DNA of 64,000 nt, from the NCBI GenBank assembly GCA_023897205.1, contig JAHWDD010000008.1:3038001-3102000 (forward strand), given 5' to 3'. The DNA is from Exophiala sp. HKRS030. Lineage: Eukaryota > Ascomycota > Eurotiomycetes > Chaetothyriales > Herpotrichiellaceae. This document shows, piece by piece, positions 14,009-41,232 of the stretch. Numbering within the stretch: position 1 is the stretch's first letter; every line of letters starts with the position of its first letter. A program made the position numbers and the translations under genes. The notes under the pieces are model-generated. The model did no database searches. It worked only from the letters and a program-made list of their open reading frames with translations, and was not told the DNA's origin.

Positions 14009-16069
14009 TCAAAGTCCCGTCCACCATGTCCCATTGTTTGTTTCTGCATCCGTATCCCAGACCAACAACGAACTCGAGTTTCGTGGTCTACTGGGCCACA
14101 CATCTTTCAACCCGTCCCAGACCTGAAGTGGTCCAGAGTAAGTCACTTCGACTCCCTTGGAGGCAAACAGGCCCACCCCCGTACTGTCCAGTCTGCTAGG
14201 ATAGACCCTGGTCGTCAGAGCGAAACGATCATTGACAAAGATTTCGACCAGTGATCCGTCCACGAACACATCGAATGTGATGGTTTCAGGAACGGCGACG
14301 CCGGAACCGGATCCGGTTTCGTCGTGAGTGATGACGTTGTATGGTTCGAAAAACCCTAGGTACGTCGTCTTGAGAAATTCTGGGATGGTCGAAGATTTCT
14401 TCCTGTCGCATGCAATCGTCGACGTCGTGGGGTCATGGTATATCGAAGTGTACTCGAGGAAATCGGGAGACGCAAGGATTGTCAAACCCGCTCTACCGGT
14501 CGTGCTGGCGACTGTGAACGAAATTTCGTACGAAGATGAATTCAACTTGTTCAAAAGCATCATAGACCCGGAGCCGGCACCGTTGCCTTTTATTGTGTTG
14601 TTGTCGTTGTCGCCGCCTACGGTATGGTTTGTGGCGTGAGAACCTTCGCGGAGACCGGCGACGACATCCCGGGCAGGTCGGATACCCAGTGTGCGTGCCG
14701 TGCAAGTGCCGTTGGGGTTTGACGTGTACACCGAACTACTGTTTCTCATGGGCGAAGGTGGTTTGACGTTGGGCGTGTACAAAACAAACAGTTCTCGAGG
14801 GATTGACAAGGCCCCTTGATACCCCTGTTGAACGATCCCAAAGTTGTTCATGTCTTCTGGTGACCAACCTATCTGAATGCGACGGTCACGTTTGGTGTCG
14901 TTGAATGATGTTACCTTGAGAGACTCCAGTATCAGAACAGCACACATACAGAGAGATCATGGCGCTTTTCCCTCATCATTGAGACTCACAGCGTAGAGAT
15001 TACCCCAATCCACCGCACCCATCGATACCGGTTCGAATGCAATGGATCCATTCGGTCTGGCACTGACAACCCCTTCATTCCAAATCGACCAAGTCTGTTC
15101 ATGATAACTTCTATCGCCTCCTTGTACTCCAGAACTGAAGAACCAGTGGCCATCAAGATCGAAGAAATTGGGAACTTCAAAATTCCATCCCCAATTACCC
15201 ACCTCGTACGGCCGACCGAGGGAAGTGTTGCCATTGGGTTCCCACAATGCTCCCAGGAAAGTCCAATCGGTCAGGTTCGACGCTAGTGCGGTGTACAGAG
15301 GTGCTCGGGGCCCAACGTCGCCTATCCCGGAACCAAAGACAGAATAGTAATGCGGCTCGGAGTAGTTGAGCATGCGATCCAACTCCGGCGACTCATGAAA
15401 GAAAGGATCTCGGAACCCGGTAACGTTCCAACCCTCTGGTGGCTGCGATATCACTGGATTGCCATCGTATTGCGTCCAGCTGAGACCGCCGTCCGTAGAG
15501 TATGCCAAACTCTGACTCTCGGTTCCCTTGAGGTACGGTGCGTCCCAACTCGTGGGAAGGCGAGAGACGGAGGTGTAAAAGGCGAGTAGTGTACCGTCGT
15601 CGACTTCTCCGGTCAAGTTGACGGGTTGTGCAGTGCCCGTGAAGATTCCGAGGTGGTTGTACTCGCTGGGACCATGGTGGGAGCTGGTCAGATTGGTCGG
15701 TCCTAGTGATTGTGCTCGACTTCCTGACCAGGCTTGGGCTGCTGCTTGGGATTGATCGCCAGAGAAGTGGTCGACATCAATCCATGTCACTAGATCTTCC
15801 GACGAGGCATGACCCCAAGAGATGTTGCCCCATTCCACATGGTTGACGTGCCACTGGTAGTGCAGATGGTAAAGGTCGCCGACGGGGTCATAGAGTGGTC
15901 CACATGGGTCATTCATCCATCCGGCAGGGGCGGAGAAATGTGAGTAAGGACGCCATCGATCGAATAGACTGTTGTTGCTCATCCCTTCAATCATACTTGA
16001 TGCCAATGTCAATGTCTGGCCATGAGCCATCATGGCTGCAAAACCAATGACTGGTAGAATCAACATCAT
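14009..16069 (-). CDS. Secreted GH32 glycoside hydrolase (invertase/fructosyltransferase-like)
   Basis: Exons 14990-16069 and 14009-14914 join over a 75-bp intron (donor GTGAGT, acceptor CTCAAG, phase 0), giving about 661 aa. The hydrophobic N-terminus (MMLILPVIGFAAMMAHG) is a likely signal peptide and there are many N-x-S/T sites, so the protein is probably secreted. The three GH32 acidic motifs are present: WMNDPCG at residues 51-57 (nucleophile Asp54), FRDP near 219-222 (transition-state Asp), and NFEVPNF with Glu298 as acid/base. The C-terminal domain has GWSPEDMNNFG and a beta-sandwich with VFVDGSLVEIFVND. The family cleaves or transfers beta-fructosyl groups of sucrose, inulin or related fructans. 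The Cys in WMNDPCG and EVP instead of ECP suggest the fungal fructosyltransferase-like branch. The frame opens with a GTG at 16078; the first ATG is 16069. Confidence 0.93.
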
Positions 16070-37285: not shown

Positions 37286-37294
37286 AAAAAAAAA
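37286..37294 (-). terminator. Pol III T9 terminator of tRNA-Trp
   Basis: Nine consecutive T on the minus strand, starting 15 nt after the discriminator base of the tRNA. This is the usual kind of RNA polymerase III stop and supports that the split tRNA gene is a transcription unit. Confidence 0.8.
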
Positions 37295-37326
37295 TATGTG
37301 AGAGGAAATGAACCCCACCTGATTTG

Positions 37327-37379
37327 CTGTGACATTGTTAGACATCGTCTGGAATAACCAGTTCAAGAGAGAAGCTCAC
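37327..37379 (-). other. Intron-like insert 2 in the T loop of tRNA-Trp
   Basis: 53 bp between T-loop nucleotides 55 and 56. It begins GTGAGC, has a perfect CTAAC branch-like element at 37337-37341 and ends TGTCACAG. Removing it restores TTCAAAT between paired T-stem strands. Length and signals match the mRNA introns in the neighbouring genes. Confidence 0.78.
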
Positions 37380-37410
37380 AACAGATAACCTTTCGATCTG
37401 GAGTCGAACG

Positions 37411-37465
37411 CTGGAACATCAATCAGTACACCGTATGGTTGTGCTCCTACGCGGTGTATACATAC
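37411..37465 (-). other. Intron-like insert 1 in the D arm of tRNA-Trp
   Basis: 55 bp between tRNA nucleotides 24 and 25. It begins GTATGT and ends TTCCAG. A CTGAT branch-like element (37422-37426) has its candidate branch A 12 nt before the 3' end. A 7-bp hairpin TACACCG/CGGTGTA (37452-37458 with 37427-37433) sits just before the branch site. The grammar is that of an mRNA intron. Confidence 0.75.
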
Positions 37466-37488
37466 CGCTACCGTTGCGCCAGAGGTCC

Positions 37489-39460: not shown

Positions 39461-41232
39461 ATGCTCCTTTTGGTGATGTCCTCGGTGGTGATGGGATACT
39501 TTTCATGGTCCGTCGTTCGGTTCGTGCAAAACTACAATGAAGCGAAGAGAACGGGTCTCCCCATCGTCTTCACACCCATCAATCCGCCAGGACCACTGTG
39601 GATGACATTTAAGGACCTCTTGATTCCGATCCTTTCCAAATTACCGTTTGGTCTTGGGGACTGGGCTCTTCGAGGTGACGTCGGATGGACCTTTCCGTTC
39701 AAGTATCGGGACCACGCCAGATACGGAGACGCCTTCATCATCGTCGGACCGGGCGAGCTTGAACTCGTCCTCGCCGACCCTCCGGCGACGGAAGAAGTGA
39801 TGAAGAGGAGGAACGATTTCATCAAGAACCCGGCCATGTACGGAATGTTGGACATTTACGGCCCCAACCTGGACACGGTCAACGGTAAAGTCTGGGATCG
39901 TCACCGCAAAGTCACGGTCCCTCCTTTCAACGAACAAAACAGTGCTCTGGTGTGGAGAGAGGCGGGGGAACAGGCCGACCAGATGTTGGCCGTGTGGTCC
40001 AAGCAGGGCACGGTCAGAAGTACACAGAGAGATGTACACGCGTTGGCATTGAACGTCCTGTGTGGAGCCGGGTTCGGAGTTCAGAGCACCTTTGTGGACG
40101 ACACGTTGCCACCCACCGACGATGAAGACCAACAAGACAATCTCGGTCCCAAAAGACTGGGGTACCGAGAATCCCTTCGGTTGTTGTTGGGAGACATTGT
40201 CCAGGTGATTTTGTTGTCGTTGATCAAGAATGTCGGATACCCTCCGTGGGCCTTGTTTGGAGGTATGAAGAAATTAAACATGGCCTACGAAGAGTTCAAG
40301 TTTTACATGGGCGAGATGATATCGAGAGAAAAACAGGCCTTTGAACAAGGCGACCTGTCGAGACACAACCTGTTGAGTGAGATGATTCGAGCCTCCGAAG
40401 GGTCAATCGCGGGAGCGGGATTGTCGGACGAAGAGGTGTACGGGAATTTGTTCATTTACAATCTGGCAGGACACGACACCACCGCAGCAACCCTCCATTT
40501 CGCCATCACTCTCTTGGCCGCGTGCCCCGAATGGCAAACTTGGATAGCAGAAGAGATCGACGCCGTTCGCAAGGCCGACGACACTGGACTGTCCTACTAT
40601 GAAGATATATTTCCCAGACTCAAGAGAGTTTTGGCCTTGATGGTATGTTTTTCTGCTCCAGTTCCAGAATCTCGAGCCACAAAAAAACAGCCCCTCGTCC
40701 CCGTATGCTGACAGGAAGAGAGGAACAGTATGAAACGGTTCGACTATACGGTCCGGTCGCGGTCATGCCACGATACACGGCCGACAGTAGACAAAAACTC
40801 GTTGTTCAAGATCGAGTTCACATTGTCCCACCTCGCACGACCATCTCACACAACTTTGTGGGTCTACACCGACATCCCAAGTATTGGGGCGACGACGCGG
40901 ATGAATGGAGACTTGATAGGTGGATAGTGGTGTCGTCGGACGACTCGTCAAACGAGACGTCAATGTTTCAACCTTTCCCCGGATCATTCGTCCCTTGGAA
41001 TTCAGGACCTAGAGTATGCCCGGGCAAGAAATTTTCACAGGTCGAATTCACAAGGGTGATGTTCAACTTGTTCTCCGACGGATCGAGAGTGAGACTTGTG
41101 CCGGAAGGAGGCGAGAGTTATGAAGACGTCAAAACTCGAGCTTTGCGAACCGTAAACAAGGCCAAAGTGATTGTCACCCTGAAAATGTCCGGGACAGAAC
41201 GGATCGGATTGAAATGGGTCAAACAATCTTGA
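39461..41232 (+). CDS. Cytochrome P450 monooxygenase
   Basis: Exons 39461-40642 and 40729-41232 join over an 86-bp intron, giving 561 aa. Near the N-terminus is one hydrophobic segment (LLLVMSSVVMGYFSWSVV), a likely ER anchor. The helix-I oxygen-binding motif AGHDTT is at residues 336-341. The ExxR motif is created right at the splice join (ALM-YETVRLYGPV). The heme-binding loop is PWNSGPRVCPGKKF with Cys491 as iron ligand. The intron has two AGs close together: the first (CTGACAG) directly touches the CTGAC branch element and is out of frame, while the AG at 40727-40728 restores the frame. P450s hydroxylate or otherwise oxidise hydrophobic substrates with a reductase partner; the substrate is not predictable. 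Neighbouring SDR and NmrA-like genes suggest an oxidative module. Confidence 0.92.

Follow-up and report, generated by a model that had tools for sequence, protein, structure and literature searches.

A twice-interrupted tRNA-Trp gene

The window, meaning here the whole 64,000-nt stretch of Exophiala sp. HKRS030 DNA that was analysed, carries a tRNA-Trp(CCA) gene on its reverse strand, divided into three exons by two mRNA-type introns. Proteins encoded nearby match those of Rhinocladiella similis (95%), Exophiala oligosperma (97%) and a record labelled Knufia peltigerae (95%), which places the fungus among the Chaetothyriales black yeasts, close to the Exophiala oligosperma group. The parts of the tRNA gene are listed below in the order in which the gene is read.

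37466..37488, reverse strand: tRNA-Trp(CCA) exon 1, 23 nt (acceptor 5′ strand, A box, D stem to nucleotide 24)
37411..37465, reverse strand: mRNA-type intron 1, 55 nt, between nucleotides 24 and 25 in the D stem; GTATGT...CTGAT...CCAG
37422..37426, reverse strand: branch-point-like CTGAT in intron 1, with its branch A 12 nt before the end of the intron (by visual inspection)
37380..37410, reverse strand: exon 2, 31 nt, nucleotides 25-55 (anticodon arm with CCA, variable region, T stem 5′ strand, first two T-loop nucleotides)
37327..37379, reverse strand: mRNA-type intron 2, 53 nt, between nucleotides 55 and 56 in the T loop, splitting the B box; GTGAGC...CTAAC...ACAG
37337..37341, reverse strand: branch-point-like CTAAC of intron 2 (from the sequence)
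37309..37326, reverse strand: exon 3, 18 nt (rest of the T loop, T stem and acceptor 3′ strands, discriminator A)
37286..37294, reverse strand: run of nine T, resembling a Pol III terminator and beginning about 14-15 nt past the tRNA end

The intron positions, 24/25 and 55/56 in standard numbering by our own reading, are both away from the canonical TSEN position 37/38. For intron 1 a scripted scan chose as branch motif the TTGAT that follows the one listed, 8 nt from the end. An A box and the T9 run are present, and the B box is divided by intron 2.

Joined, the exons form a 72-mer that ARAGORN calls as tRNA-Trp(cca) and whose minimum-energy fold is a full cloverleaf with the CCA anticodon, which bears out the original prediction that three blocks would join into a 72-nt tRNA with all helices paired. 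The coordinates and letters that it gave for inserts of 55 and 53 nt, starting GTATGT and GTGAGC, containing CTGAT and CTAAC and ending CAG, were confirmed as well. In the raw window neither ARAGORN nor Rfam at gathering scores reports a tRNA, and none is called by ARAGORN, under four option sets, in a precursor from which neither or just one of the inserts has been removed.

The borders were also searched for blindly, by scoring every deletion of 35-120 nt by the tRNA that results, ignoring the letters of the deletion and with the other insert removed. Insert 2 is the single best deletion and insert 1 is best up to a 1-nt slide that leaves the same product, both bounded by GT-AG. That a test blind to the letters returns exactly these two inserts, both GT-AG, argues that they are not chance features.

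Other tRNA-Trp loci in the genome

A search of the genome (59.8 Mb in 50 contigs; the related R. similis is given as 34.7 Mb, PMC11775710) with the spliced 72-mer returned two loci, the window gene and a gene on contig 4. An uninterrupted tRNA-Trp gene elsewhere had been named as the check on the original prediction; the second gene found is complete, but has a GT-AG insert of its own in the T loop. A third, partial copy also exists on contig 3, and its absence from the 72-mer results indicates that this search can miss short pieces.

Contig 4, starting at 348384, reverse strand: second complete tRNA-Trp gene, D arm uninterrupted, 33-nt insert at 37/38
Within that gene, between nucleotides 54 and 55, reverse strand: T-loop intron, 51 nt, GTGAGT...CTAAC...GAAG, one nucleotide off window intron 2
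Contig 3, 1478383, forward strand: tRNA-Trp relic, a 5′ fragment with exon 1 only, ending at the D-stem break of the window gene

The blind deletion test gives exactly GT-AG borders for the contig-4 T-loop intron too. Once spliced, the two paralogues agree at 70 of 72 positions, and both differences lie in the acceptor stem with pairing kept. In the relic the upstream flank is similar to that of the window gene and the sequence after the break is unrelated.

A contiguous Trp T arm has zero matches in the genome (25-nt pattern, up to 3 mismatches), and the only contiguous stretch from the Trp D arm to the anticodon is that on contig 4. The exact 17-nt Trp anticodon arm occurs a single time, in the window gene. 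Allowing up to 3 mismatches, this short pattern matches 740 places, many of them by chance, as a reversed control matches 426; among the places with at most 1 mismatch only the window gene lies within a tRNA, and the closest other matches, six of which were re-read, had no A box or T arm nearby and are not tRNAs. As expected of a fungal gene, the exact anticodon arm is absent from public prokaryote and viral collections. Among the copies found, both complete tRNA-Trp genes would need removal of the T-loop insert; a strongly diverged or unassembled copy may exist.

mRNA-type introns in other tRNA genes

The phenomenon is not restricted to tRNA-Trp. We read 17 mRNA-type inserts, at many positions and in genes for 11 anticodons, in 16 of 66 readable tRNA genes, a fraction that is not an unbiased rate since the census is incomplete and the search patterns were partly aimed at missing tRNA types. 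The 66 genes comprise 42 hits of a CM search, of which 2 are interrupted, and 24 genes recovered by pattern, of which 14 are. The CM hits came from 63 scored among 1,707 candidates; 40 of them were fetched (the other two are L083 and L146), and 39 of the 40 could be parsed, L071 being read by ARAGORN only. One pattern search gave 6 places (2 known, 2 new tRNAs, 2 uninspected), two further ones gave 14 (4 uninspected) and 68 (some inspected), another gave 55 places whose 32 new regions held 11 tRNAs (one a CM hit) and 21 regions with no readable tRNA, and a search with 10 places gave 3 known and 7 fetched, that is, 4 tRNAs and 3 unreadable regions. Elongator Met and Phe genes are not among the 66 readable genes of this incomplete sample, and a query in which nine yeast tRNAs were joined end to end had no match, which says nothing about their absence.

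Pattern searches for the missing types added interrupted genes for Lys(CTT), Lys(TTT), Gly(TCC), Asp(GTC) (three), Ala(AGC), Pro(CGG), Leu(CAA) (two), Leu(TAA) and His(GTG). For several isoacceptors all the copies found are interrupted: Trp (2/2), Asp (3/3, plus one truncated relic), Arg-TCT (2/2), Leu-CAA (2/2) and the single genes for Lys-CTT, Lys-TTT, Gly-TCC and Ala-AGC (1/1 each). Copies are mixed for Pro-CGG (1/2 interrupted), Leu-TAA (1/2) and His-GTG (1/3). The two Arg(TCT) genes carry GT-AG inserts of 54 and 58 nt in the variable loop and keep the T arm, with its B box, intact.

An insert at 37/38, the ordinary endonuclease site, accompanies the mRNA-type intron in 14 of the 16 genes, the exceptions being the window gene and one Arg gene, so that many precursors would need two different splicing systems. 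The Arg(TCT) gene with the 58-nt variable-loop intron (contig 3, 1653175-1653312, reverse strand) has at 37/38 an insert of 8 nt, very short for an endonuclease intron. Asp copies stand in tandem on contig 2 (904949 and 905164, reverse strand); the downstream one, at 904949, is a 5′-truncated relic that misses its 5′ half and carries a separate GT-AG insert, located in its anticodon stem. Four further regions (L160, L161, L163 and L141) have tRNA-like T arms and 5′ parts that are unreadable even when up to two mRNA-type introns are allowed, and are possibly more broken tRNA genes.

Borders, paralogues and intron sequence

Across the 16 blind deletion tests, GT-AG was among the best deletions in nine. 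It gave the single best product in six of these (three Trp, two Lys, Ala), and in the others it was one of 11 and one of 11 tied deletions (the two Arg genes) or two of 28 (Gly). It was not among the best in the remaining seven (Asp three times, Pro, Leu three times), where the insert lies in loops whose length the tRNA score hardly constrains; the borders given for these seven genes stem from paralogues and from the choice of GT-AG. Borders fixed independently thus carry GT...AG in all three Trp introns, and paralogues serve for Asp, Pro, Leu(TAA) and His.

These paralogue comparisons do not involve any tRNA score. The three Asp genes have their intron after base 17 or after base 24, yet once spliced they share every base over the first 37 and the last 34 nt. 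Interrupted Pro(CGG) equals its uninterrupted paralogue over 37 nt, interrupted Leu(TAA) does so over 40 nt save one base, which falls inside the 37/38 insert, and interrupted His(GTG) over 37 nt save acceptor base 7, a compensatory difference (the pair is A-U in the gene with the intron and G-C in its paralogue). With an anticodon-loop intron allowed, ARAGORN calls the expected anticodon in 12 of the 16 genes after removal of the mRNA-type intron, vs 1 of 16 before; the four failures include the contig-4 Trp gene, in which it places the 37/38 insert differently.

The 17 inserts measure 47-65 nt (median 55). A G at position +5 is found in 16 of them, vs 24% of random GT..AG pairs of the same lengths drawn from the window, and +5G, CTRAY near the end and a final YAG occur jointly in 13 of 17, vs 0.8% of 6,800 random pairs. 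All 17 contain [CT]T[AG]A[ACT], and 15 the strict CTRAY within the last 30 nt, but since a branch-like motif was part of the parser's search filter these frequencies are not independent and +5G is the cleaner figure. In the nine inserts whose borders come from the blind test, +5G and CTRAY are each present in 9/9.

For comparison with protein-coding genes, the P450 gene of the window has an mRNA intron at 40643-40728 (GTATGT...GCTGAC...ACAG) fixed by three homologues. It is the sole mRNA intron fixed by homology, and its grammar agrees with that of the tRNA inserts, but at 86 nt it is longer than all 17. Together with two inferred joins (52 and 53 nt) it makes up the whole mRNA-intron reference set, which is too small for a firm comparison of grammar and length. 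The GH32 gene, examined for further mRNA introns, has none, and scanning for them de novo with codon statistics gave sets that were empty or too noisy. The GH32 gene, an invertase gene at 16030-14012 on the reverse strand, follows one frame against three homologues, with an in-frame TGA at 14957-14959.

We also considered that one intron might recently have been copied among tRNA genes, and rejected this on comparing three intron pairs, whose interiors are not clearly alike. Over whole introns, 3 of 500 shuffles (Trp), 0 of 500 (Arg) and 0 of 500 (Asp) reach the observed similarity score; over interiors stripped of splice signals, 343 (Trp), 38 (Arg) and 146 (Asp) of 500 do. The interiors of the two Trp T-loop introns are therefore no more similar than shuffles, and GTGAG and CTAAC are kept between them despite this divergence: splice signals and exons are constrained, and the rest of the intron has diverged.

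A bulge-helix-bulge was looked for at all 17 junction pairs, taking the best arrangement of each, and a full 4-bp central helix was found in none. Junction pairing averages about 5.2 of 10, vs 5.16 for shuffled introns; window intron 1, with 7/10, is among the highest, and intron 2 has 5/10.

U6 and Pol III signals

Two U6 genes were found, one uninterrupted and one (contig 5, 2143871-2144024, reverse strand) with an mRNA-type intron, GTTCGT...CTAAC...ACAG, lying inside ACAGAGAAG/ATTAGC, the ACAGAGA...AUUAGC region. Among the 16 interrupted tRNA genes, 14 are followed by a run of at least five T within the letters read, and one further gene (L078) has a T6 slightly further on.

In both Trp genes the T-loop intron splits the B box, so TFIIIC binding should be hindered. 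Taking GWTCRANNC to be the B-box consensus, as we assume here, a perfect match, GTTCGACTC, lies within the Trp anticodon arm (window 37409-37401, reverse strand). It stands at position 80 in the window gene, about 60 nt past the A box, and at position 25 in the contig-4 gene. Intron 1 moves the match to a normal distance from the A box, while in the contig-4 gene it is close to the A box, which allows us to speculate that in the window gene it could act as a substitute B box.

A proposed maturation route and its alternatives

We consider it very probable that the window holds a working nuclear tRNA-Trp(CCA) gene whose Pol III precursor contains two U2-type spliceosomal introns, and that the gene is one of a class. 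In the route that we propose, Pol III would transcribe the gene, the spliceosome, U1 included, would recognise GTATGT and GTGAGC together with the branch sites and excise both introns, the D and T arms would be able to fold only after both are gone, so completing the cloverleaf, and end trimming, CCA addition and modification would then follow as usual. Where an anticodon intron is also present, the D and T introns would be expected to leave before it, the order described for Cyanidioschyzon merolae. What the sequence shows is the structure of the gene, the intron grammar, the constraint on exons and splice signals and, within the search, the lack of a contiguous Trp T arm; transcription by Pol III, splicing by the spliceosome and function of the product are inferred. 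The spliceosome is proposed as the remover since the introns lie outside 37/38 and are devoid of a bulge-helix-bulge. The suggestion already made for this locus, that the tRNA may need the spliceosome twice, gains support from the GT-AG borders found blind, from the mRNA-intron grammar, from junction pairing no better than in shuffled controls and from the persistence of the 5′ splice site and branch motif between the Trp paralogues. Our estimate for spliceosomal removal rests on the blind borders and the paralogues and not on a match in length with mRNA introns.

Three other explanations were weighed. The inserts might mark old, disrupted and unexpressed Trp genes, with the true tRNA-Trp gene outside the assembly or too diverged for our searches. 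Truncated relics do exist here (Trp on contig 3, Asp on contig 2), and eukaryotic D- or T-arm insertions are supposed to mark pseudogenes (PMC4090602). Against this, all stems of both Trp products are paired and their two exon differences keep pairing; removing the inserts, which carry splice grammar, restores the tRNA to the nucleotide. Moreover, neither complete Trp gene is free of inserts, the search revealed no contiguous Trp T arm, and the six anticodon-arm matches that were re-read are not tRNAs. The three complete Asp genes found are interrupted in the same way, as is the only gene found for each of Lys(CTT), Lys(TTT), Gly(TCC) and Ala(AGC); unless copies were missed, a living cell could not have lost all of these. 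We regard the pseudogene explanation as highly improbable.

Ectopic introns cut by the tRNA-splicing endonuclease, as in C. merolae, nucleomorphs and archaea, would account for the positions, D- and T-arm introns being known in those organisms (PMC3978253, PMC4090602, PMC9602550), and the enzyme has many ordinary 37/38 introns to cut in this genome. Some nucleomorph introns also have no defined bulge-helix-bulge (PMC3978253). Against this explanation stand the 0/17 central helices and the junction pairing equal to that of shuffles; GT-AG borders, +5G and a branch motif are not expected of endonuclease introns either, and this explanation seems to us less credible still than the preceding one. 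The least probable of the three is that the inserts are self-splicing introns of group I or II, or small transposons that tRNA genes tolerate. Self-splicing introns and transposons can interrupt structural RNA genes, but 47-65 nt is far below the size of a self-splicing intron, the window has no Rfam match, and the three paralogous intron pairs are not copies of one another beyond their splice signals.

Returning to spliceosomal removal, both complete Trp genes and all three complete Asp genes are interrupted, so the cell would require the spliceosome to read these codons, and the best reading is that mRNA-type introns are compulsory for Trp and Asp among the copies found. More broadly, and with less assurance than for the window gene, we think it likely that tRNA maturation in this fungus, and probably throughout Chaetothyriales, has the spliceosome as an obligatory enzyme, with all tRNA-Trp, all tRNA-Asp and several other tRNAs passing through it, often together with the endonuclease, and that this explains the gap at Trp in the tRNA set of Exophiala dermatitidis.

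The usual teaching is that nuclear tRNA introns form essentially a single class, located at 37/38 and removed by an endonuclease made of protein. In the ordinary ascomycete studied here, a share of tRNA maturation seems to have passed to the spliceosome. If this is true, whole isoacceptors escape the standard tRNA finders in genomes of this kind, as Trp would in E. dermatitidis, splicing of uncapped Pol III transcripts is widespread, and the supply of tRNA, hence translation, depends directly on pre-mRNA splicing; the order in which spliceosome, endonuclease, end trimming and modification act becomes a question. Intron gain could then also be studied in genes whose mature product is known exactly, and a single genome offers paralogues that differ in whether they have an intron or in the nucleotide at which it lies.

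Comparison with known systems

In 2015, tRNAscan found every tRNA but Trp in the related black yeast E. dermatitidis, and the accessible part of that report gives no cause (PMC4463862); mRNA-type introns interrupting the Trp genes would explain the gap. A later annotation of the species counts 64 tRNA genes, with no isotypes in the portion available (PMC10484061), and R. similis and Fonsecaea erecta are credited with 51 (PMC11775710) and 30 (PMC5640708) tRNA genes, all of which is neutral on the question.

Eukaryotic tRNA introns lie mostly at 37/38, with nucleomorphs and C. merolae as exceptions that are handled by the splicing endonuclease (PMC4090602, PMC3978253). The canonical fungal type is present in this genome too, and 14 of the 16 genes with mRNA-type inserts have an insert at that site; it differs from the mRNA-type inserts in position, sequence rules and enzyme. 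C. merolae tRNA-Ile(UAU) has introns at 12/13, 37/38 and 53/54; its ectopic introns have been attributed to a bulge-helix-bulge and the tRNA-splicing endonuclease, and those of the Guillardia nucleomorph measure 3-24 nt. In C. merolae the T-arm intron blocks pseudouridylation at position 55, and the introns of the D and T arms are removed ahead of the one in the anticodon loop (PMC9602550). Unlike these, the inserts described here are 47-65 nt long, follow splice-site grammar and have no bulge-helix-bulge.

Among the matches listed in open-access titles and abstract openings, a coverage with subscription papers and preprints mostly outside it, there was no report of spliceosomal introns in nuclear tRNA genes. 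As far as we found, then, a spliceosome acting on Pol III transcripts is known from U6 and interrupted tRNA genes are known, while nuclear tRNAs dependent on the spliceosome are undescribed. The closest relative is the mRNA-type intron of Schizosaccharomyces pombe U6 (Tani and Ohshima 1989, 1991, cited in PMC10484740): in both cases a Pol III gene for a non-coding RNA has an mRNA-type intron, removed by the spliceosome in S. pombe and presumably so here. U6 itself is a component of the spliceosome, and reverse splicing near the catalytic site is the presumed origin of its intron, whereas tRNAs are not part of the spliceosome; and, unlike in U6, the introns described here are found in many tRNA genes, at many positions and, in the window gene, twice in a single gene.
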